In this document: piece by piece, positions 9,619-62,793 of the stretch
Position numbering within the stretch: the stretch's first letter is position 1
Layout: every line of letters begins with the position of its first letter
Source: Levilactobacillus acidifarinae DSM 19394 = JCM 15949
GTDB lineage: Bacteria; Bacillota; Bacilli; Lactobacillales; Lactobacillaceae
Direction of reading: 5' to 3'
Assembly: GCF_001434835.1 (NCBI RefSeq)
Contig: NZ_AZDV01000005.1
Coordinates: 186,001 to 250,000 of the forward strand
DNA length: 64,000 bases
The notes under the pieces: model-generated
What the model saw: only the letters and a program-made list of their open reading frames with translations
Databases searched by the model: none
Told to the model about the DNA's origin: nothing
Translations under genes and position numbers: made by a program

Positions 9619-9827
9619 CATGTTTCCTCCTCTAAACTTAAAAATCCAGACCAATGCTGGTTTCAACTCCTTATTTTATAGCAAGAGTTATGTGAACGCC
9701 ATCATAATTCACAAGCACCTTTTGGTTGGATTAGCTGATGCTTAATTAAGTGAAAGAACCAGCGGTTGAGCTTTTTCACAAGACCGCCTATAATGACCAT
9801 CATTGTGAATAACTAAGAGGTGTAAAT

Positions 9828-10148
9828 ATGAAGAAAACAAGCATTGTGACGTATCCCGCTGTCCTTATTGCCGACGACGCCGATGGCTACACGGTCATCT
9901 TCCCCGACATCGCCGACGCTGTCACTGGTGGTCAAGATTTAGGCGAAAGTCTGGTTAATGCCACCGCAACCCTTGGCCGTTTTCTTGTGAACTATCACGG
10001 GACCTTACCCGTGCCCAGCACCATGACGGAGCTGACGCACCGGTATCCCGCCGACTTTATTCAGTTTGTTGCTGTGGATCTCGCCAACGTCGCGACCCAA
10101 CCGGTCGAAACGGGTGTCAGCATCCACTCGTTAGATTTAGCTAAGTAA
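9828..10148 (+). CDS. HicB-like protein (orphan antitoxin family)
   Basis: 106 residues with the HicB RNase-H-like fold: YPAVLIADDADGYTVIFPDIADAVTGGQDLGESLVNATATLGRFL is the typical strand-strand-helix pattern. HicB proteins neutralise HicA mRNA interferases, but no HicA (about 60 residues with a dsRNA-binding fold) is visible on either side, and the C-terminus lacks an obvious DNA-binding domain. It is a single gene with its own terminator. It may be a solitary HicB-like protein with another role. Family is clear, antitoxin function doubtful. Confidence 0.8.
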   Translation: MKKTSIVTYPAVLIADDADGYTVIFPDIADAVTGGQDLGESLVNATATLGRFLVNYHGTLPVPSTMTELTHRYPADFIQFVAVDLANVATQPVETGVSIHSLDLAK

Positions 10149-49994: not shown

Positions 49995-50247
49995 TGCGTC
50001 GGTTGATCGGTGGCCAAGTAATCAGTGGGAATGATGGTGAAGGGGCGTTATTCCTGGAGGGATTGACGAAATTTATAACGAAAAAACGGTCAAAACTGCG
50101 TCACAATTTTCTTCACAATTCAATTGCGTACAATTTGAAATGTCAAATAAACCTAACTGCTTCGGCCGCCCCACCCGGTGGCCACCAACGTAGCCGAGTT
50201 AGCGAATGTTGTTTTTCAATTCTACCAATGAAAGCGAGTGCTTATTG

Positions 50248-50811
50248 ATGTTTAAATTACTCATGAAGACCCTGACCGTTGTCCTGACCGCGGGTATGAT
50301 GACGACTTTGACCAGCCAATCCTCTTCGGCGGCGACCATAACGCCCACCTGGGGTCATTGGCAGTCGCTTACGATTACCTACCATTGTGCCTCGACCTCA
50401 GCTTACTACCGTAGTGTCTGGCAAGGCGCTATCCGTCAATGGAATAATACGGGGGTGGTTCATTTGTGGGCCGTTCCGACCAGACAGAAAGCCGACATTG
50501 AACTGACGTCGGCTCAGTCGATTACCCGGGCTCAAATTTTTGCGGGCTACACGGATTACAGCTATTATAAACAACCGCATGATAACCGCATCGTTTCTGC
50601 CAAATCGACCCTCAACCGGGGCGTGCTGACCGGTTATCATTATACCAAGGCCCAACGAACGAACGTGGCGACGCACGAGTTAGGGCACGCGTTAGGGCTC
50701 AGCCACTCGCAGGATAAGCATAGCGTGATGAATGCCACCAACCGATACGCGGCCATTAGTGCCCAGGATCGTGTGGCCTTGCGGGGGGCCTATGCGCATC
50801 AACGCGCCTAA
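50248..50811 (+). CDS. Secreted matrixin-like metalloprotease
   Basis: 187 residues from ATG 50248. Signal peptide (LMKTLTVVLTAGMMTTLTS, cleavage near SSSA-ATI) followed by a mature domain of about 160 residues with the metzincin zinc motif HELGHALGLSH (His143, Glu144, His147, His153) and a Met-turn (SVMNAT, Met161). This is the M10/M57-like family of small lactobacillar zinc proteases. No propeptide cysteine switch is seen. Ribosome site weak (GAAAGCGAG). Substrate unknown; acts outside the cell. Confidence 0.87.
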   Translation: MFKLLMKTLTVVLTAGMMTTLTSQSSSAATITPTWGHWQSLTITYHCASTSAYYRSVWQGAIRQWNNTGVVHLWAVPTRQKADIELTSAQSITRAQIFAGYTDYSYYKQPHDNRIVSAKSTLNRGVLTGYHYTKAQRTNVATHELGHALGLSHSQDKHSVMNATNRYAAISAQDRVALRGAYAHQRA

Positions 50812-50861: not shown

Positions 50862-51143
50862 TAGTGTTAAAAACTATAGAAAACGAGAGTACGGTAACGC
50901 CACCGCTTTTAGCGAGCTAAGGACAGTGAAAGCTTAGCCCGGTCACTTATCGGAAAAACACCTTTTCTGTTGTCTTCTGAACGTACCATTAGTAGGAAGA
51001 ACCGTGGCCGACACGTTATCGTTCGGGGCATCTGTTAGGATGCCAATTAAAGTCGGTTTAACAATAAACAAATTGGGTGGTACCGCGGAAAGATCTTTCG
51101 TCCCTGTTTCTGGGGAGGATGGATCTTTTTTTATGGTTTTAAC
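50862..51143 (+). promoter_or_regulatory. T-box riboswitch of asnS
   Basis: Leader with stem I (GAGAGTACGGTAACG ... GAACGTACC; candidate specifier AAC, Asn, at 50980-50982), the T-box TGGGTGGTACCGCGG (51074-51088) that pairs with uncharged tRNA ACCA end, and a terminator formed by AGATC.../...GGATCTTTTTTT (about 51090-51132). It raises asnS expression when tRNA-Asn is uncharged. Confidence 0.9.
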
Positions 51144-52714: not shown

Positions 52715-54124
52715 CTAATCCGACTGATTGGCGGCGAGTCGCCGGGCCAATTCGCGCTGACGGAGAGGTGTCATGCCCGCCACGTTGAAGCGAAAGTCGC
52801 TCCGATCGGCGCCGAACACGGTTCCTGGTTGCACCAAGATATCCTGGGCGAGTAACTGGTTGAAGATGTGCCGGTCGGCTTGGTGCACCCAGAGGTAGAA
52901 GCCGCCCTGCGGCAGGGTGAAACGCCACGCGGGACGGTACCGGTGAAAGATGGCGGCGACGGCTTGACGACGTTGGGTGAGCTTGGTGGTCAGCCGGGTT
53001 AGCTCGCTGTCGAAATGGGGACTGTTGAGGGCCAAGTTGACCCAAGTTTGCGCGAGTAGGCTGGGGACCATGTCGAGTTGTTTTTGGACCTGTAACAGAC
53101 GTTGGCCGATGGCTTGCGGGGCAATCAGCCAGCCGATCCGGGTGTTGGCGCCTAGGAGTTTGGACAGGGAACTAATGTAGATGACGTTGGCCGGGGAAAG
53201 GACCTTGAGCGGCGGCATGGCCGTTTCGTCGGTCACCAACCAACCGAACACGTCATCTTCGACGATGGGGATCTGGTAGTGCTGACAGAGGCGGAGCAAC
53301 TGCTGGCGCTGGGTTAGCGATAACGTTTCACCGGTCGGGTTTTCAAACGTCGGGTTCGTAATGAGGAGTTTGATGCGGTGTTGCCGAATCGTTTGTTCCA
53401 GGCGGTCGAGGGCAAAATGCGTTGCGGTCAACGGGACGGGATAGGTGTGAATGCTGAGCGTCTGAAAAACGGCCGTGGCGTTGAAGTACGAGGGGGTCAC
53501 GACCGCCACCGCATCGCCCGGCTGAAGCAGGCTGCTGAGGACCAAAAAGAGCGATTGTTCCGCACCCCCGGCGACCATGAGAGTTTGGTGCGTGAGGTCG
53601 AGTTGGGGAAAGAGCGCGGGCTGGCGACTCAGCGTGGTCAATAGGGCGGGGTCGCCCATAGTCGTGGTGGCGGATTGTTGCGCCAGATAGGTCGTCCAGT
53701 CCAGTTGGAAACGGCCCAGTTGGGGAATCAGTTCGGGCGGCAACCCCGCCGCGGCCCCGTCGATGAACTGGCCGTGGTCAAGGCCCCGTGCCTGCGCCAG
53801 TTGCGCCTGTAACGAGGCGCCGGGTGTGATGGGATGCCGTAAGAGTTGCCAGTTCACGCTGGTGGTCAGGGGCTTAAGTTGGGGAATCTGTGCCACGAAG
53901 GTCCCACTCCCCCGGCGCTTAACCAGAACACCCTGGGCGCTGAGGTCGGCCAACGCCCGGCTGACCGTCGACCGGTCGACGTGTAACCAGGTCGCCAGTT
54001 GGCGTTCGGCGGGGAGCCGTTGTCCGGGGAGCAATTGGTCGTTTTGAATAAGGGATTTAATCAGCTGAATAATGGCACGATACTTGGGTTTGACAGCTGG
54101 GAGATTGGCCGCCCAATTAATCAT
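52715..54124 (-). CDS. pdxR: MocR/PdxR-type GntR-aminotransferase regulator
   Basis: 469 residues: N-terminal GntR winged helix (KYRAIIQLIKSLIQNDQLLPGQRLPAERQLATWLHVDRSTVSRALADL, about 14-65) fused to a class I aminotransferase domain with PLP lysine in YISSLSKLLGANTRIGWL and the Asn/Asp/Tyr pocket residues (TNPTFENPTG, VEDDVFGW). MocR proteins sense pyridoxal phosphate rather than catalyse. It faces pdxK, an ECF S component and DUF436 across a short operator region, so the PdxR role (control of B6 salvage) is well supported by context. Confidence 0.88.
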   Translation of the reverse strand: MINWAANLPAVKPKYRAIIQLIKSLIQNDQLLPGQRLPAERQLATWLHVDRSTVSRALADLSAQGVLVKRRGSGTFVAQIPQLKPLTTSVNWQLLRHPITPGASLQAQLAQARGLDHGQFIDGAAAGLPPELIPQLGRFQLDWTTYLAQQSATTTMGDPALLTTLSRQPALFPQLDLTHQTLMVAGGAEQSLFLVLSSLLQPGDAVAVVTPSYFNATAVFQTLSIHTYPVPLTATHFALDRLEQTIRQHRIKLLITNPTFENPTGETLSLTQRQQLLRLCQHYQIPIVEDDVFGWLVTDETAMPPLKVLSPANVIYISSLSKLLGANTRIGWLIAPQAIGQRLLQVQKQLDMVPSLLAQTWVNLALNSPHFDSELTRLTTKLTQRRQAVAAIFHRYRPAWRFTLPQGGFYLWVHQADRHIFNQLLAQDILVQPGTVFGADRSDFRFNVAGMTPLRQRELARRLAANQSD

Positions 54125-54153
54125 ACGAACACATCCTTTACGGTTAGTATATA

Positions 54154-54183
54154 AATTGGCTGGATTTTAAACAAGCCAATTGG
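54154..54183. promoter_or_regulatory. Candidate PdxR operator
   Basis: AATTGGCT (54154-54161) and AGCCAATT (54174-54181) are inverted copies 12 bases apart between the divergent regulator and kinase genes; a third AATTGGCGG half-site overlaps at 54179. Confidence 0.65.
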
Positions 54184-54236
54184 CGGTTGTTTTCGGGTGT
54201 TTTTACCGGAATAATAAGGAAACAGGAGGTAACGAC

Positions 54237-55046
54237 ATGGAGAACGTTTTAACGATTGCGGGGTCGGATAGCTTAGCGGGCGGGGGCCTGCAAGCGGATC
54301 TTAAGACCTTTGAGGAGCTGGATACGTTTGGGTTGAGTGCCGTGACCAGTCTCGTCACGATTTTACCGCAGCAGGTTCACGTCACACCGGTCGCGAACAC
54401 GGTCTTGGCGCAACAACTGACGTCGATTCTGACGCAGGTCTCGATCCGAGCGGCCAAGACGGGGTTGTTGGGCGGCGTCGACGCCATCCATACGGTCGCG
54501 ACCCAGTTGGCGGTTACGCCGATGATCCTGGTGGTTGATCCCGTTTTTGTGTTTAAGGAAGGTCGGACGGACCGGCAGACGACCGAACTGGAGCAGATGA
54601 AACGGGACCTGCTGCCGTTAGCCACGGTGGTGACGCCGAACTTGGCGGAAGCGGAATTATTGAGTGGTGACACGTTGACTCGCGCCGAGCAGTTACCCGG
54701 CGCGGCCCAGAAAATCCAGGCCTTGGGCTGTCCCAACGTGGTGATCAAGGGCGGTAACCGGCTCCCCGGTAACCAAGCGGTGGATTATCTGTTGACGCCA
54801 CAAGGGGAGTTCTGGTTCCGGACCTTAAAGGTCGCCACGCCGGCGACCAATGGGGCTGGCTGTACCTTTAGCGCCGCCATTACCGCGTGGCTGGCGCGCG
54901 GCGTTTCCGTCGAGGAAGCCGTTCAGCGCGCCAAGACCTTCGTGCGCGCGGGAATCGCGTACGGGGTGCGGTTTAATTCGACAACGGGGAGCGTCTGGCA
55001 GGGGGCCTGGCGCCAACATGGGGGGCAACAACGTGGCCAATCATAA
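54237..55046 (+). CDS. pdxK: PLP-pathway kinase, ThiD/PdxK type
   Basis: 269 residues from ATG 54237 (ACAGGAGGTAA upstream). Ribokinase-like fold of the HMP/pyridoxal kinase group: TIAGSDSLAGGGLQADLKTFEELDTFG, VVDPVFVFKEG, VVTPNLAEAELLSG and the catalytic Asp/anion hole region TNGAGCTFSAAITAWLARG (GAGC with a Cys, as in ThiD2/PdxK2 enzymes). It phosphorylates pyridoxal/pyridoxine, or hydroxymethylpyrimidine. Neighbouring PdxR and ECF S component favour vitamin B6. Confidence 0.9.
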   Translation: MENVLTIAGSDSLAGGGLQADLKTFEELDTFGLSAVTSLVTILPQQVHVTPVANTVLAQQLTSILTQVSIRAAKTGLLGGVDAIHTVATQLAVTPMILVVDPVFVFKEGRTDRQTTELEQMKRDLLPLATVVTPNLAEAELLSGDTLTRAEQLPGAAQKIQALGCPNVVIKGGNRLPGNQAVDYLLTPQGEFWFRTLKVATPATNGAGCTFSAAITAWLARGVSVEEAVQRAKTFVRAGIAYGVRFNSTTGSVWQGAWRQHGGQQRGQS

Positions 55047-55548
55047 GTTAAAACAAGAAATTTTGGCGGCCGTCTTAGCGGCACTGACCATTGCGTTATC
55101 GTTGATGATCGTCATTCCGGTTCCGGCGACGCACGGGATGGTGACGCTGTGTGAGGTGGGCATTTATACCAGCGCGATTCTATTTGGGAATCCCGTGGGC
55201 GTCTTCGTTGGCGGGGCGAGTGGCTTCATGATCGACGTGTTATCCGGGTATCCGGAATGGTGTCTGTTCTCCTTAGTGATCCACGGGCTGCAGGGCCTGG
55301 TAGTGGCAGCGCTGGCGCACCGGGCGTCTGGTGTGGTGCGGGGGCTGGTTTTGCCCATGCTGGCGGGCAGCCTGGTGATGGTCGTGGGCTATTACCTGGC
55401 GACTAGCCTGCTCTTCGGGTGGCCGGCTGGATTGGCCTCGATTCCCGGTAATTTGATTCAGGTTGGCTTTGGCTTGGTCGTCACCGTGACCTTGGTGGCA
55501 AGCCTGACCCGCTTTAATCCTAAACTCAGCAAAGGAATGATTCGATGA
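55018..55548 (+). CDS. ECF transporter S component, vitamin B6 (PdxU-like)
   Basis: 176 residues from ATG 55018, overlapping the kinase by 29 bases; GTG 55033 is an alternative start. Six hydrophobic helices, an N-terminal [40 protein letters not shown] with the Ala-rich helix 1 that contacts the shared EcfT, and [32 protein letters not shown] components bind one vitamin; context says pyridoxine/pyridoxal. The EcfAAT energising module is encoded elsewhere. Confidence 0.86.
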
Positions 55549-56099
55549 CTTTAGAAAATTTAGAACCGGATGTGGCCCGCTTGGTCCAAGAGGTGTTAGC
55601 GGCAGCTAAACTACGACCGTTTGACCTTTTTGTCCTTGGCTGTTCAACCAGTGAGGTAGTCGGTGGCCAGATCGGTCAGGACTCGAACCCTGAGGTGGGG
55701 ACGCGCATTATCAAGACGGTGCTGGCCCAATTACGGCCCCAACAGATTCAATTGGCCGTTCAGGGCTGTGAACACATTAATCGCAGTCTAGTGGTCGAAC
55801 GTCGGGTGGCCGATGAGATGGGATTTGAAATTGTTAACGTGGTTCCGGCCATGCACGCGGGTGGTGCTTGTTCCGTGGCGGCCTTTCAGCAATTCAAGGA
55901 TCCGGTAGAGGTGGAGCACGTGGTGGCTCAGGCCGGATTAGACATCGGCGACACCGCTATCGGAATGCACGTAAAATTTGTTCAGGTACCCGTGCGGCCA
56001 ACCCAATCGGAACTCGGTGGGGCCCACGTTACGGCGTTACGCTCCCGGCCAAAATACGTCGGGGGTCCACGCGCCACCTATGCGTCCGTACAACCATAA
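55545..56099 (+). CDS. TIGR01440/DUF436 (YwlG-like) protein
   Basis: 184 residues; ATG 55545 overlaps the previous stop (ATGA). Clear family: [58 protein letters not shown] and a C-terminal [27 protein letters not shown]. Function of YwlG-type proteins is not established. Its place as last gene of the B6 operon is notable because elsewhere it is often next to glyA, itself a PLP enzyme. Confidence 0.9.
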
Positions 56100-56189
56100 G
56101 TAATCGTTTAATAATAAATTAGGAAATTATTGATAATAAACTATTTAAAAATATTTTTATACAAAAGGCTTGCGCTTTCCGACAATCCA

Positions 56190-56445
56190 TGATAAAGTGT
56201 AGCCAACATCAAAAAACGAACAAAGAAATCTTTCAAACGAAGTAACGACTTATCTGGGTGTTCAGAGAATTGGCGGTTGGTGCGAGCCATGCAGGGTAAG
56301 TTAGTGAAATACGAAAAGCTTTTCTTCGGGGTATCCTGACGTTATCTAGGATCAAAGTGCAAGGAATGGTGATTCCTTGAAGCTGGGTGGTACCGCGCTT
56401 ATTCGGCGTCCCTTCTATTTTTATATAGACGGGGCGCCTTTTTTG
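56190..56445 (+). promoter_or_regulatory. T-box riboswitch in front of small zinc-ribbon genes
   Basis: All landmarks are present: AG-bulge region GGCGGTTGGTGCGAGCC (56270-56286), stem I 3' side GGTATCCTGACGTTATC (about 56326-56342), T-box TGGGTGGTACCGCG (56384-56397) and a terminator (GGCGTCCC ... GGGGCGCC then T6, 56405-56443). Aligning the segment before CCTGA with known leaders points to specifier GGU (Gly), but UAU (Tyr) overlaps it and cannot be excluded by eye. Confidence 0.85.
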
Positions 56446-56473
56446 ATGGAAAAATTTTGAGGAGGGATTCAAG

Positions 56474-56608
56474 ATGGAAATGACTAAGCAAGTGTTCAGA
56501 GACCACAAGTTACATTGTCCGGAGTGCGGCGACATCGTGTTTAAGAAGGTTGCTGGCCAACCTCAACTGGTCGAATGTACGTCCTGTCAACATAGAATTG
56601 TCCGTTAA
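56474..56608 (+). CDS. 44-residue zinc-ribbon protein
   Basis: ATG 56474 follows GAGGAGGGA. The product MEMTKQVFRDHKLHCPECGD... ends in CTSCQHRIVR: two CxxC pairs (CPEC, CTSC) 19 residues apart make a one-knuckle zinc ribbon. Too short for ordinary gene prediction, but the start signals, the T-box upstream and a diverged second copy downstream support it. Function unknown. Codon use is more AT-rich than the neighbours. Confidence 0.7.
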   Translation: MEMTKQVFRDHKLHCPECGDIVFKKVAGQPQLVECTSCQHRIVR

Positions 56609-56646
56609 TGAAATTCAACGACGAAACCTTAAGGAGGAAATTAAAA

Positions 56647-56769
56647 ATGATGACACCGAATATGGCTGGCGTAATGGCCACTGATAGTAAGTTACATTGT
56701 CCAGAGTGCGGGGATATCGTGTTCAAGAAAGTCCCTGGTGAACCTACATTAGAGAAGTTGACTCATTAA
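56647..56769 (+). CDS. Truncated paralogue of the zinc-ribbon protein
   Basis: 40 residues from ATG 56647 (AAGGAGGAAA upstream). Residues DSKLHCPECGDIVFKKVPGEP repeat the first gene (DHKLHCPECGDIVFKKVAGQP) almost exactly, also at DNA level, but the second CxxC is lost: the chain ends EKLTH. It either pairs with another protein to bind zinc or is decaying. Confidence 0.6.
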   Translation: MMTPNMAGVMATDSKLHCPECGDIVFKKVPGEPTLEKLTH

Positions 56770-56781
56770 GGGGGCCTGAAT

Positions 56782-57069
56782 ATGACGAAGAAAGCAGGTG
56801 ATAAGATGCAAGAAACAAAAAGGTCCGTGGCAACGGCGGCTAGTTCTATGGATAAACGAACAAAAATAGAAATAATTGGTTTAATGTTAGTCTTAGTTAG
56901 CCCGCTATTAATCGCGTTAGGCACGTTCCACTGGACAACATTACCGTTGGTTGAGTTATTAATAATTGGAATTATGGTGATTGCCATCACCATCGGGATC
57001 ACGAAGATTGCGAAGCAGCTAGTTCTGGCAATTAAAGAGGGTGCGGACACTGACTACCGAGAAAGATAA
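56782..57069 (+). CDS. Small two-helix membrane protein
   Basis: 95 residues from ATG 56782 (AAGGGGGCC upstream), 12 bases after the micro-gene. Hydrophobic segments IEIIGLMLVLVSPLLIALG and LPLVELLIIGIMVIAITIGITKIA are separated by FHWTTL; the ends are charged. Third gene of the T-box unit. Family not recognised. Confidence 0.7.
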   Translation: MTKKAGDKMQETKRSVATAASSMDKRTKIEIIGLMLVLVSPLLIALGTFHWTTLPLVELLIIGIMVIAITIGITKIAKQLVLAIKEGADTDYRER

Positions 57070-57111
57070 CGGTCCCTATCAGTATTTGAGGGAACTTTCA
57101 GATGATTAACT

Positions 57112-57150
57112 GACGCTATGCGGTTGCAGCTCACCGGATAGCGCCTTTTT
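57112..57150 (+). terminator. Intrinsic terminator of the T-box unit
   Basis: ACGCTAT pairs with ATAGCG(C), then CC and T5 (57146-57150), after the membrane-protein gene. Confidence 0.75.
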
Positions 57151-57364
57151 GTACATAGCGTACGGGTTGAAATCACTTATTAATAATTAAGCGGACGCAA
57201 TCGAGGCGTTCGTCATAATCAACCCGTCATTTAAAATCCAGCCGATGCAGAGTTAGAGGTTGATTGAAAATTTCATCGGGTAAATTTTAATAATTGGATT
57301 AGTGATTGATTAGAAAAACCAATGGAATATAATTGTATCAATAAAACAATTTGGAGGAATGAGC

Positions 57365-57678: not shown

Positions 57679-57707
57679 TTGACAACGCTTTCTTGGTTAG
57701 CTATCTT
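57679..57707 (+). promoter_or_regulatory. Probable tyrS promoter
   Basis: TTGACA (57679-57684), 17 bases, TATCTT (57702-57707). No T-box motif occurs between here and tyrS. Confidence 0.55.
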
Positions 57708-57789: not shown

Positions 57790-59046
57790 ATGAACATTAT
57801 TGACGAGCTGACCTGGCGCGGGGCAATCAACCAGCAAACGGACGCGGAAGGCTTGAAAAAACTAACCAGCGACAAGAAGATTTCACTGTACTGTGGGGTC
57901 GATCCCACCGGTGATAGTATGCACATCGGCCACCTGATTCCGTTCATGATGATGAAACGCTTCGAACTCATGGGCCACCACCCCTACATTCTAATTGGGG
58001 GAGCGACCGGGAGCATCGGTGATCCCAGTGGCCGGAAGACGGAACGTCAGTTGCAAACCATGGAAAAGGTCCAACATAACGTCAAGGCCCTTTCCCGGCA
58101 GATGCAACGCCTGTTCGGTGGGGATTCCAACGTGACCATGGTGAACAACTACGACTGGTTGTCTAAGATTTCACTGTTAGACTTTCTTCGTGATTACGGG
58201 AAGCTAGTCAACGTTAATACCATGCTGGCTAAGGATATCGTGGCCAGTCGGTTGGATAACGGGATTTCCTTTACCGAATTTACCTACCAGATCCTCCAAT
58301 CCGTGGACTTCCTGACCCTGAACCGGGACCATAACATCCAATTACAAATCGGAGGGGCGGACCAGTGGGGTAACATCACGGCCGGTATTGACCTCATTCA
58401 TAAGGTCACGGGCTCGGAAACTGAAGTCTACGGGTTAACGATCCCGTTGATGTTAAAGGCCGACGGGACCAAGTTTGGCAAGACGGCCGGCGGTGCTATC
58501 TGGTTAGACGCCGAGAAGACCTCGCCGTATGAATTTTACCAATTCTGGTTGAATCAAGACGACCGCGACGTGATCCGCTACCTCAAGTTCTTTACCTTCC
58601 TGGGCCAAGACGAAATTGCCGAATTGGCCCAAAGCGTCGAGGACGCGCCCGAAAAACGGGTGGCCCAGCGCCGCTTAGCCGAAGAAGTCACGCGGTTCGT
58701 GCACGGTGAGGAATCCCTGGAATCGGCTCAACACATTTCTGAAATCCTGTTCTCCGGCGATATTCAGAAGCTAACGGTGACTGAGGTACAGGAAGCTTTC
58801 GAGAAGGTACCTAACGTGACAATCGCGGCCACACCGAAGAACATTGTGGACGTCCTGGTCGAAACCGAAATTGAGCCGTCCAAGCGGCAAGCCCGCGAAG
58901 ACGTGACTAACGGGGCTATTACCATTAACGGGGAACGCCAGACTGATACAACGGTCGAACTTGATCCAGCCAAACACTTCTCCGGGAAATTCATGGTGAT
59001 TCGGCGAGGGAAGAAGAATTACTTCCTTGCGCGGGTTGCCCACTAG
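57790..59046 (+). CDS. tyrS: Tyrosyl-tRNA synthetase of the tyramine locus
   Basis: 418 residues from ATG 57790 (GAAAGGAGAAG upstream; the TTG frame extension to 57727 is not needed). Class I motifs: HIGH-type MHIGHL near residue 44 and KMSKS-type KFGKTAGG near 228; tyrosine pocket residues YCGVDPTGDS and QIGGADQWGN; C-terminal S4-like RNA-binding domain (QAREDVTNGAITINGERQ). It charges tRNA-Tyr and in this locus is thought to report free tyrosine. It ends with its own terminator before tdcA. Confidence 0.95.
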   Translation: MNIIDELTWRGAINQQTDAEGLKKLTSDKKISLYCGVDPTGDSMHIGHLIPFMMMKRFELMGHHPYILIGGATGSIGDPSGRKTERQLQTMEKVQHNVKALSRQMQRLFGGDSNVTMVNNYDWLSKISLLDFLRDYGKLVNVNTMLAKDIVASRLDNGISFTEFTYQILQSVDFLTLNRDHNIQLQIGGADQWGNITAGIDLIHKVTGSETEVYGLTIPLMLKADGTKFGKTAGGAIWLDAEKTSPYEFYQFWLNQDDRDVIRYLKFFTFLGQDEIAELAQSVEDAPEKRVAQRRLAEEVTRFVHGEESLESAQHISEILFSGDIQKLTVTEVQEAFEKVPNVTIAATPKNIVDVLVETEIEPSKRQAREDVTNGAITINGERQTDTTVELDPAKHFSGKFMVIRRGKKNYFLARVAH

Positions 59047-59116: not shown

Positions 59117-59243
59117 TCTCTATTTATTTTTTAATAACCGGTAACGGGTAAAATAATCGTCAAAAACCCTTTACAGGGTATTTGTGAAAGCGTATTCTTT
59201 TGGGCGTAGAGTAATCACCAAAAATTTGTGGGAGGTCATCACA

Positions 59244-61130
59244 ATGGAAAAGGTTACTGACTCACTGAAGGATTTAGACTTAAACGCCCTGTTCATCGGG
59301 GACAAAGCCGAAAATGGTCAACTTTACAAGGACCTATTGAATAAACTGGTCGATGAACATCTCGGTTGGCGGAAGAACTACATACCGGAGGACGCCAATA
59401 TGATTGGCCCCGCCGAACAATCTTCACCCGAATTTCAACAAACCGTTAACCGGATGCGCTCGGTCTTGAACCAACTATCCGAACGGATTCGGACGGAATC
59501 TGTCCCGTGGCATTCAGCCGGTCGTTACTGGGGACACATGAACTCCGAAACGTTGATGCCCGCCTTACTGGCTTACAACTACGCCATGCTGTGGAACGGG
59601 AACAACGTTGCTTACGAATCTTCACCGGCGACCTCGCAAATGGAAGAAGAGGTTGGTCAAGAATTTGCCCGGTTGATGGGTTACGACTACGGTTGGGGTC
59701 ACATCGTTGCCGACGGCTCGTTAGCGAACCTGGAAGGTCTCTGGTACGCCCGGAACATCAAGTCGTTGCCGTTGGCCATGAAGGAAGTTGTTCCTGCAGC
59801 CGTAGCTGGTAAGTCCGACTGGGAACTGCTGAACATGCCGACTAAGGAAATCATGGACTTGGTCGAAAGTGAAGGCGCCAAAATCGACGACATTAAAAAG
59901 CGTTCGGCCCGTAGCGGGAAGGATCTCCAGAAGTTGGGTAAGTGGTTAGTGCCACAAACCAAGCATTATTCTTGGATGAAAGCGGCTGACATCATTGGTA
60001 TCGGGTTAGACCAAGTCGTTCCCGTACCAATCGATAGTGATTACCGGATGGACATCGATGCGCTAGAAAAGATCATTCGGGGATACGCCGCCGAAAAGAC
60101 GCCAATCCTCGGGGTCGTGGGGGTTGCCGGGTCGACCGAAGAAGGTGCCGTAGATGGTATCGACCGCATCGTCGAATTGCGGAAGAAACTTCAAAAGGAT
60201 GGCATTTACTTCTATCTCCACGTGGATGCCGCTTATGGGGGTTATGCCCGGGCCTTGTTCTTGGACGAAGATGACAAGTTTATCCCGTACAAGGATCTGC
60301 GTAAGGTGCACGCCGCCAATCACGTCTTCACCGAAGACAAAGAATTCATTAAACCAGAAGTCTATAAGGCCTATAAAGCGTTTGATGAAGCCGAATCCAT
60401 CACCATCGATCCACACAAGATGGGCTACGTGCCTTATTCCGCTGGGGGAATCGTGATCCAAGATATCCGGATGCGGGATACGATTTCTTACTTCGCCACC
60501 TACGTTTTCGAAAAGGGTGCCGATATTCCAGCTTTACTGGGTGCTTACATTCTGGAAGGGTCCAAGGCCGGGGCCACGGCCGCTTCCGTCTGGGCAGCCC
60601 ACCACACGTTACCATTAAACGTGACGGGTTACGGGAAACTCGAAGGTGCTTCCGTAGAAGGCGCACACCGGTACTACAACTTCCTGAAGAATCTGAGCTT
60701 CAAAGTGGGTAATAAGACCATCGAAGTTCACCCGTTAACGTCACCTGACTTTAACATGGTGGACTACGTCTTGAAGGAACAGGGTAACGACAGTCTCGAA
60801 GATATGAACGCGCTGAACCACGCGATGTATGAACAGGCTTCTTACGTTAAGGGCTCATTGTACGGGAAAGAATACATTGTTTCTCACACCGACTTTGCCA
60901 TTCCGGATTACGGGGATAGCCCATTAACCTTTGTGAACAGCCTAGGCTTTAGTGAGGCCGAATGGCGGAAGGCCCAGAAGGTCACGATTATTCGGGCTTC
61001 CGTGATGACGCCGTACATGAACCGACAAGAAAACTTTGACTACTTCGAACCCAAGATCAAGCAAGCCATGCAGGCAGACTTGGAACAAATTTACGCCGCT
61101 CAACTGCAACATCAACACCAAAATGCTTAA
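59244..61130 (+). CDS. tdcA: Tyrosine decarboxylase (PLP)
   Basis: 628 residues from ATG 59244 (GTGGGAGGTCATC upstream). Group II PLP decarboxylase with Lys392 as Schiff-base lysine in [15 protein letters not shown], matching Lys392 of enterococcal TyrDC; also [28 protein letters not shown] (the Asp that holds the pyridine nitrogen) and a long C-terminal domain. It converts tyrosine to tyramine and CO2, consuming a proton. Length and neighbours (tyrS, tyrP, nhaC) match the known L. brevis locus. Confidence 0.97.
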
Positions 61131-61371: not shown

Positions 61372-62793
61372 ATGGATAAGCAAGCAGCAAAGCTTAGTCT
61401 TGGCACGTTCATCGGGATGACGATGGCGTTATGTGCCACGGTTCGTTCGATCCCTTCAGTCGCCGCAACTGGCTGGACGCAAATCACGTATATGTTGTTT
61501 GCGGTGATCTTCTTCGCCTTACCAGTTGCCCTGATTTCGGGGGAACTAGGAACCATGATGCAAGCGGAAGGGGGCCCACAATTGTGGGTCAAGACCGCTT
61601 TAGGTAATAAATGGGGTTTCGTTACTGCCTGGCTACTATGGGTACAAATGTTTCCTGGCATGGTGATGGTCGCTTCAACCATCGGTCCATTGTGGGGGAA
61701 CGTCTTCGGTAACGTCGCCTTAGGGAATAACCACTGGTTTATTTTAGCCAACATTCTCGGGTTCTACTGGATCATTACGGTTTTAAATTTACGTTACGAC
61801 ATGGCCAAAGTTGGTGGAAACATCGGGGTTTGGCTGGGCGTGTACATCCCCATCGTGATTATGTTGATCATGGGGATTGCGGCCCTGATTAAGACGGGGA
61901 TTAACCCCGCCGGTTACCTGGGGACCTTTACCTGGGGCAAGTTACTGCCGAGTTTGGATAACCTCCAAAGTCTCCAGTACTTCGCAGCAATTTCCTTTGT
62001 CTACACCGGGATGGAAATTTCCTCCGTCTTCATTCCCCGGTTACACGATGCCAAGAAGACCTACACGCGCGGGATTTTCGTTGCGCTGATTGGGTTAGTT
62101 TTGATGAACTTGTTAAACGCGATGCTAGTCGCGAACGTTGTTCCTAATGGTAAGATTCAGTTGTCCAATATTACCCAACCAATCTTACTGTGGTGCCAAA
62201 TTCTAGGTTGGCCAACGATTATTGCGAACATCTTCAGCTTCATGGTTGTAATTGGCGTCTTAATCCAATTATCTGCCTGGGTAACCGGGCCTTCCAAGAC
62301 GATGACGCAGGTTGCGCGGGATGGTCAACTACCGGCAAGCTTTGGTTACCACAAGGTCAACAAGTATGGGGTTTCTAAAAACGTTGTTTTGACGCAAAGT
62401 GTCTGCATTTCACTGTTTGCCTTACTCTATGGCGTCATGAAAAACGTGAACGGGGTCTTCTTGACGCTGACTAACGCGACCACGGTTATTTATGCCTTAG
62501 TCTACATTTTGATTGCCATTGCGATTATGCGCTTGCGGCAGACACAACCGGATTTGGAACGGCCGTACCGACTAGGAAAATCGGGTAACGGTGTGGCTTA
62601 CGGCGTTGCTTTCCTCCTGTTGTTTGGGATCTTAGTGATTATCGCCGCCACGTTATTCGCTAGCGATTTAACTCAGGCCATCTTTGTTCTGGTGATTACT
62701 GCGGTTCTCTTCATCATTCCGTTAATTATCGACAAGAACAAGAATGCTGAGTGGGCTAAACAAGTTAACATTGATTTAGCGCTCAACAAATAG
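61372..62793 (+). CDS. tyrP: Tyrosine/tyramine exchanger
   Basis: 473 residues with about 12 helices of the APC superfamily, glutamate:GABA-antiporter-like branch: LSLGTFIGMTMALCATVRSIPSVAATG at helix 1, PVALISGELGTMMQAEGGPQLWVKTALG, FVYTGMEISSVFIPRLHDAKK and WVTGPSKTMTQVARDGQLP. It imports tyrosine and exports tyramine, so decarboxylation yields a proton gradient. GAGGAGAG precedes ATG 61372. Assignment rests on family plus gene order. Confidence 0.94.
   Translation: MDKQAAKLSLGTFIGMTMALCATVRSIPSVAATGWTQITYMLFAVIFFALPVALISGELGTMMQAEGGPQLWVKTALGNKWGFVTAWLLWVQMFPGMVMVASTIGPLWGNVFGNVALGNNHWFILANILGFYWIITVLNLRYDMAKVGGNIGVWLGVYIPIVIMLIMGIAALIKTGINPAGYLGTFTWGKLLPSLDNLQSLQYFAAISFVYTGMEISSVFIPRLHDAKKTYTRGIFVALIGLVLMNLLNAMLVANVVPNGKIQLSNITQPILLWCQILGWPTIIANIFSFMVVIGVLIQLSAWVTGPSKTMTQVARDGQLPASFGYHKVNKYGVSKNVVLTQSVCISLFALLYGVMKNVNGVFLTLTNATTVIYALVYILIAIAIMRLRQTQPDLERPYRLGKSGNGVAYGVAFLLLFGILVIIAATLFASDLTQAIFVLVITAVLFIIPLIIDKNKNAEWAKQVNIDLALNK

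Follow-up and report, generated by a model that had tools for sequence, protein, structure and literature searches.

The window, by which we mean the whole analysed stretch of 64,000 nucleotides from Levilactobacillus acidifarinae (the host), contains a T-box leader followed on the same strand by two genes for very small CPEC proteins, a gene for a small, probably membrane, protein and a gene for an HTH_59 DNA-binding protein. The genes of a tyramine cluster, tyrS, the tyrosine decarboxylase gene (TDC) and tyrP, are contiguous in the window (Table 1), and the host genome has a second tyrS elsewhere. The stretch upstream (52715-56099) holds a minus-strand GntR-aminotransferase (MocR/PdxR-like) regulator, a Phos_pyr_kin kinase, an ECF transporter S component and a DUF436 gene, apparently vitamin B6 genes next to a PLP-dependent decarboxylase; DUF436 also occurs near the unit at two other loci (L146 and L150). 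Further upstream, a leader at 50868-51108, the only T-box of the window above the RF00230 gathering score, precedes a gene for a class II synthetase (D/K/N type, probably asparaginyl), and positions 50206-50808 encode a Matrixin-type (M10) peptidase of 201 residues that looks secreted by eye.

Table 1 Features of the locus in window coordinates. Promoters, operators and hairpins are candidates.
Feature	Position	Strand	Basis
Putative leader promoter, TTGCGC-17 nt-TAAAGT	56170..56198	+	By-eye reading
Tyr-specific T-box leader	~56205..56450	+	Rfam match 56224-56416, shuffled folding, 16-leader alignment, covariation
Specifier codon UAC (Tyr)	56310..56312	+	Sequence, alignment
T-box sequence TGGGTGGTACCGCG, antiterminator side	56384..56397	+	Sequence, core pattern, alignment
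Leader intrinsic terminator	56407..56445	+	Hairpin folding, covarying pairs
Zinc-ribbon protein, 44 aa, CPEC...CTSC	56474..56608	+	ORF list, Pfam scan, family search, alignment
Second zinc-ribbon copy, 40 aa, ATG 56647	56647..56769	+	ORF list, alignment
Small, probably membrane, protein, 95 aa (probably 87 aa, ATG 56806)	56782..57069	+	ORF list, alignment, model
Terminator-like hairpin 3' of membrane-protein gene	57114..57150	+	Folding
Candidate own promoter of HTH gene, TTGATT-16-TATAAT	57306..57333	+	Consensus scan
HTH_59 DNA-binding protein, 84 aa	57359..57613	+	PF20038, 71.7 bits (cut-off 27)
Candidate own promoter of tyrS, TTGACA-17-TATCTT	57679..57707	+	Consensus scan
tyrS of the tyramine cluster	57790..59046	+	TIGR00234 above cut-off
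Upstream palindrome AACCGGTAACGGGT, candidate second operator	59136..59149	+	Locus comparison
Palindrome ACCCTTTACAGGGT, 14 bp, over the TDC -35 box, candidate operator	59166..59179	+	Locus comparison
Candidate TDC promoter, TTTACA-17-TATTCT	59170..59198	+	Consensus scan; similar in relatives
Tyrosine decarboxylase (TDC)	59241..61130	+	TIGR03811, 1226 bits
Tyrosine-tyramine antiporter TyrP	61372..62793	+	NF040513 above cut-off

The T-box leader and the small proteins

Stem I, specifier, T-box sequence and terminator are present in order in the leader. The Rfam model RF00230 aligns to it over the whole model (1-219) with 78.5 bits (E 7.6e-17). This score falls below the gathering score of 93, and the leader is therefore missing from the default scan of the window. 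Of the 33 T-boxes in the host genome that match RF00230, 26 lie below the gathering score and 7 exceed it. The leader folded better than every one of 200 shuffled sequences (z -4.3), and the same is true of its terminator (-14.9 kcal/mol, z -3.3; 0 of 200). Pair-keeping two-sided changes were found in at least one sequence for 28 of the 46 predicted pairs when 16 leaders were compared. The end-to-end model match, the shuffles and the covariation bear out the full T-box leader claimed by the first-pass annotation of this DNA. The consensus scans, which returned 7 terminator-like sites in the window with 6.6 expected and 12 promoter-like sites with 6.3 expected, listed neither the leader terminator nor the putative leader promoter; the stretches corresponding to this promoter look similar in the relatives printed.

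The context of the specifier reads GAA-A-UAC-G. UAC is invariant in all 16 aligned homologous leaders, as is most of the T-box core, and the specifier is therefore UAC, for tyrosine, instead of the GGU (Gly) or UAU proposed earlier. By its architecture, the leader would control transcription in vivo through antitermination by uncharged tRNA-Tyr.

Two CPEC genes of 44 and 40 residues had been annotated behind the leader, and both open reading frames and both CPEC motifs are present, but the second CxxC is missing from the 40-residue copy, which sits in a 53-codon frame (56608-56769). Four cysteines are kept in 23 of the 24 zinc-ribbon copies found by motif search at 16 loci. The 40-residue copy resembles the only copy of Levilactobacillus suantsaii (L141) with an internal stretch deleted (dN/dS 0.06 between the two), so one of the two copies in this strain is probably not a full zinc ribbon. 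Copy number varies from 1 to 4 across loci, with tandem arrays of two to four at L142, L143, L146, L150 and in the window, a recurrent local duplication of a gene of 40-50 codons. Values of dN/dS among relatives are 0.00-0.13 for the zinc ribbon and 0.07-0.24 for the membrane protein (Nei-Gojobori; 23 chosen within-genus pairs, of which 18 gave a value and 5 with saturated dS gave none), and by this measure both small proteins are under purifying selection.

Pfam searches at E <=1 matched 24 families to the 44-residue zinc ribbon and 3 to the 53-codon frame, none above cut-off. General models fit the zinc ribbons of relatives somewhat better: Zn_Ribbon_TF matches 11 of 22, with a best E of 1.9e-8 (cut-offs not displayed). 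Weak profile matches to zinc ribbons of RNA polymerase and the ribosome (best E 0.0024) could suggest an adaptor that acts during starvation on the ribosome, RNA polymerase or tRNA and not on TDC. The best match overall, however, is to acetyl-CoA carboxylase (E 5.7e-4), such levels are general to zinc ribbons, and among 301 genomes no copy was found apart from TDC at the counted level. We regard such an adaptor as quite improbable, and the link to translation as such that had been suspected finds no support here.

The third small protein, described earlier as a 95-residue two-helix protein of no known family, indeed has no Pfam or NCBIfam match above cut-off; its 16 members give scattered weak family matches (best E 0.001, at most 2 members per family, cut-offs not displayed). 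The structure model has the two long helices (25-48 and 56-93), but also a third, poorly determined N-terminal helix (mean pLDDT 72.9, pTM 0.44), and the start is probably 56806 (87 residues), since the starts in 15 relatives, as we picked them, align with Met-9. It is probably a membrane protein. The terminator that had been noted after the small genes corresponds to a terminator-like hairpin of -15.3 kcal/mol (z -2.1; 6 of 200 shuffles equally good), unlisted in the consensus scan; similar hairpins are present in L142-L145, and none was found in L141 and L146.

Tyrosine is absent from all 22 distinct zinc ribbons (24 copies, two identical proteins being omitted) and occurs at most once in the membrane proteins (16 rows). 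This near-absence fits manufacture of the small proteins during tyrosine starvation. The HTH proteins, unlike them, carry 2 or 3 tyrosines each in seven alignment rows, which represent eight family-sample genomes with the G268 row omitted.

Distribution and linkage with tyrosine decarboxylase

The pair of zinc-ribbon and membrane-protein genes was found in 8 of 301 genomes of the family, host included, with membrane-protein matches at E <=1.1e-6. The count leaves out zinc-ribbon hits at E >=1.9e-4, except for a second copy in G142 that lies in a unit, and membrane-protein hits at E >=8.9e-4. All eight genomes fall among the 17 of this sample with a TDC match. Another 8 of these 17 have neither the HTH gene nor the small genes, so the module is not essential to carriers of TDC. 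One hit that might have marked a unit outside TDC loci, in G205, was rejected: it falls within a frame of 151 codons, and neither a T-box nor such a membrane-protein gene was found with it. An order-wide search of 365 genomes with the membrane-protein alignment returned the host genome as the single match, so this sample evidently has no other carriers, as those would have matched.

We also scanned a collection of genomes from 84,980 species with two short HTH peptide patterns and obtained 33 loci, among them no Levilactobacillus brevis record; carriers with other HTH letters are missed by such a scan, since only these two patterns were sought. Fifteen of the 33 loci carry the T-box core, zinc ribbon, membrane protein, HTH gene, tyrS, TDC and tyrP. 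They belong to 15 named species: six of Levilactobacillus, three of Lentilactobacillus, Furfurilactobacillus rossiae and five of Secundilactobacillus. Of the other 18 loci, 17 have an HTH_59 gene, but zinc ribbon, membrane protein, tyrS and TDC were not found there, and one (L173) is unmapped. Within Levilactobacillus, TDC is present in 7 of 35 genomes, namely the six species of L141-L146 and the host. The T-box was assigned with the Rfam model in the window and in 7 of the 15 relatives, and the scan placed it upstream of the small-gene pair in all seven; in the other eight relatives the assignment is based on the core pattern and the alignment.

The search for the same arrangement of T-box and CPEC genes in other lactobacilli, which the first-pass annotation had proposed, thus found 15 named species, from four genera, that have it. 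In these species and in the window the arrangement is conserved beside tyrS, TDC and tyrP, which bears out the suspected link to the tyramine genes. The unit, its Tyr specificity and its linkage with TDC are well supported by the sequence comparisons, and it is close to certain that the tyramine locus has a conserved, dedicated Tyr T-box unit.

The HTH_59 gene, tyrS and the palindrome before the decarboxylase gene

The HTH_59 gene, single-copy in the host genome, had been overlooked as a gene that extends the unit in other genera. At the seven Levilactobacillus loci, window included, it lies 130-289 nt behind the membrane-protein gene, with a hairpin between the two in five of the seven. In Secundilactobacillus and Lentilactobacillus the distance is 14 to 54 nt, so the gene is probably part of the T-box unit there. 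The hairpin behind the HTH gene is modest in L149 (z -2.0), and the one in L148 is not clearly a terminator. The gaps and hairpins of Levilactobacillus suggest that T-box control of the HTH gene is direct in other genera only. In the window, where the HTH gene is apparently driven from a promoter of its own, direct action of the T-box would be limited to the two kinds of small protein.

The leader may instead be the tyrS leader of the tyramine cluster, feeding tyrS by readthrough with the small genes as passengers. G025 does have a T-box directly before tyrS, G069 has one before HTH-tyrS, and no hairpin was found between HTH gene and tyrS at the five Secundilactobacillus loci. However, a separate promoter-like element precedes tyrS at all seven Levilactobacillus loci (by scan in the window; in the six relatives similar to it by eye), other promoter-like elements were seen by eye upstream of tyrS in Secundilactobacillus and Lentilactobacillus, and hairpins follow the membrane-protein gene at five of the seven Levilactobacillus loci. 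In F. rossiae the small-gene unit and tyrS-TDC-tyrP are divergent transcription units, each with a T-box of its own, so that the small genes keep a T-box although tyrS has one. A tree of 20 leaders separates, with local support of 0.91, the small-gene leaders and that of G069 from three tyrS leaders (F. rossiae, G025 and the second tyrS of the host); in the last of these the specifier is not aligned correctly, and support at several other deep nodes ranges from 0.64 to 0.80. The dN/dS values well below 1 also speak against mere passengers. Promoters, hairpins, F. rossiae and the tree together suggest that the T-box is kept for the small genes themselves, and we consider the readthrough explanation distinctly unlikely.

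A relic of a lost synthetase leader had been named as the case that would overturn a T-box unit of non-synthetase genes. We looked for it, and a T-box before tyrS does exist in G025; yet a relic is unlikely, because F. rossiae keeps both T-boxes and the small-gene T-boxes form a separate lineage. The sequences bear out a T-box unit of non-synthetase genes.

In G069 (locus L132, minus strand), a 19-codon frame lies between the T-box (9883-9891) and the HTH start near 9770. It begins with TTG behind GGAGG, has three tyrosine codons and overlaps the HTH start. It is reminiscent of the anti-TRAP leader peptide, in one genome, and could be chance.

The nearest solved relative of the HTH_59 protein is TraN of pIP501, a DNA-binding winged-helix protein, which gave a weak profile match (E 2.5e-5 summed over two repeats; E 0.14 for the better single repeat) and the best, also weak, structural match (Foldseek E 0.065). 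TraN is a transcriptional repressor with two HTH motifs that controls conjugation genes, according to the available part of PMC10877727. The HTH_59 protein is unlike it in having 84 residues, a position beside TDC and one HTH instead of two winged ones; both TraN repeats align onto the same stretch.

All seven HTH members scanned also match a phage excisionase family (PHROG), and the neighbourhoods of the cluster differ between genera, as does the number of zinc-ribbon copies between loci. These features could suggest an excisionase-like role for HTH_59 in a mobile tyramine island, with the small genes as cargo or as a maintenance system. Against this, the 13 window proteins scanned around the unit include no integrase (the flanks being partly covered), the HTH gene adjoins tyrS at 14 of the 15 named loci, and a mobility factor would be an unusual target for a T-box. 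We find a mobility factor hardly probable.

A 14-bp palindrome, ACCCTTTACAGGGT, covers the -35 box of the candidate TDC promoter. It is present with at most 2 changes (at least 12 of 14 letters) at all 17 HTH-bearing TDC loci examined. Among the eight HTH-less TDC loci none has more than 9 of the 14 letters; three of these eight genomes are below the cut-off of the TDC model. Two loci limit the palindrome count: bases close to the gene are masked in L136, and in L140 the match begins within the gene, which means that the stretch upstream of it is not the promoter. G025 has neither HTH gene nor palindrome and G069 has both, with TDC identities to the window of 77 and 74 percent, respectively. 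As the HTH-bearing TDC loci are mostly close relatives, the palindrome may be common by descent, and shared descent probably explains much of its co-occurrence with the HTH gene. Near HTH_59 genes unlinked to TDC the palindrome was found in only 1 of 17, about chance level (the count excludes L173, which is a short match from a Chloroflexi bin). When the whole host genome was searched with 3 mismatches allowed, the TDC site alone was returned, once per strand; with the pattern reversed as a control there were 5 matches, and on its own the pattern therefore lacks specificity.

A cre-like site lies over the -35 box of tyrS (57679..57707), and another adjoins the -35 box of TDC (59166-59198), suggesting catabolite control of both genes.

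Regulation of tyrosine decarboxylation

Support from sequence extends to the T-box and its specifier, the reality of the proteins, the linkage with TDC, the signs of separation from tyrS and the co-occurrence of HTH gene and palindrome. On this basis we propose a tyrosine-starvation regulatory module of the tyramine locus that restrains tyrosine decarboxylation, a reading about which our confidence is evenly divided. Uncharged tRNA-Tyr would bind the UAC-specific T-box and the leader terminator would not form. The zinc ribbon and the membrane protein would then be made, in other genera together with the HTH protein, and the small proteins would restrain the loss of tyrosine. The HTH_59 protein would most likely bind the palindrome over the -35 box and repress the TDC-tyrP promoter. 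The zinc ribbon may modulate the HTH protein or the transcription complex, and the membrane protein may act on TyrP exchange or anchor a partner at the membrane. The direction of regulation and the biochemistry in this scheme are inferred. A stronger form, in which the Tyr T-box makes zinc ribbon, membrane protein and TraN-like protein jointly shut both decarboxylation and tyrosine-tyramine exchange once tRNA-Tyr is uncharged, is more tentative, and we would sooner doubt it than accept it.

The unit might also serve to gain tyrosine when tRNA-Tyr is uncharged: the membrane protein would aid a carrier, TyrP or some other, and uptake or peptide use would be raised by the zinc ribbon and the HTH protein. 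T-box targets other than synthetases are mostly biosynthesis and transport genes in the part of a genomic survey available to us (PMC2494555), and a small helical protein as modelled here could be a carrier subunit. TyrP, however, is, as its NCBIfam name indicates, an exchanger that pays with tyramine, so raising TyrP in starvation would gain nothing. Moreover, the unit has no core transporter gene and is linked specifically to TDC. A role in tyrosine gain therefore seems unlikely to us, and we prefer restraint of decarboxylation.

Enterococcus durans provides the closest comparison for the leader. Its tyrS T-box also has a UAC specifier, with the same T-box sequence UGGGUGGUACCGCG, and lies beside tdcA and tyrP; it stands directly before tyrS, whereas in the window the leader stands before the small genes, and a separate candidate promoter precedes tyrS. 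As given in the accessible part of that study (PMC3315439), tyrosine raises tdcA and tyrP and lowers tyrS through the T-box, and TyrS as a negative regulator showed no specific DNA binding and had no effect on overexpression; the study raised, and left open, the question of what halts the decarboxylase under tyrosine scarcity. In L. brevis, tyrS was strongly induced and tdcA was not, in the portion available of PMC8419935. The tyrS, TDC and TyrP of the window, identified by equivalog models, correspond to the classical cluster tyrS-tdcA-tyrP. The parts of the accounts of that cluster available to us name tyrS, tdcA, tyrP and nhaC and mention no small genes or dedicated DNA-binding protein.

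The nearest known logic is that of the Trp T-box and anti-TRAP of Bacillus subtilis (yczA/rtpA), likewise a T-box for one uncharged tRNA with a very small zinc protein, and a membrane-protein gene follows in the anti-TRAP operon. Anti-TRAP binds zinc, is made when tRNA-Trp is uncharged and regulates metabolism of the same amino acid, as described in the available part of PMC11255114. A small four-cysteine protein, predicted to bind zinc, is found behind the T-box in the window and at all 15 loci. The unit differs in sensing Tyr and not Trp, in its CPEC/CxxCGH type of zinc ribbon, in the participation of an HTH gene and in adjoining a degradative decarboxylase cluster, anti-TRAP being tied to biosynthesis. 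Membership of the anti-TRAP family by sequence was rejected, as no chain named anti-TRAP is among 55 PDB sequences at E <=1; the likeness is therefore one of mode of action only at the level tested.

The genomic survey cited above (PMC2494555) states, in its accessible part, that 8 percent of T-boxes precede genes of unknown or unrelated function, and the examined part of its Table 2 of hypothetical genes includes no Tyr unit. We found no description of a Tyr T-box small-gene unit in the open-licence literature of PubMed Central.

Decarboxylase pathways gain acid resistance and burn an amino acid needed for protein synthesis. Zinc ribbon, membrane protein and HTH_59 protein are candidates for a negative regulator of the kind sought in E. 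durans, and a candidate operator is named that can be tested directly. Tyramine is a matter of food safety, so the control of TDC is also of practical interest. If the proposed module is real, the known targets of T-boxes, mainly synthetases, biosynthesis and transport, would come to include dedicated regulators, for which anti-TRAP is the precedent. The logic of T-box and small zinc protein known from anti-TRAP would then have been invented a second time, independently, and would be used here to stop an acid-resistance pathway that wastes an amino acid.
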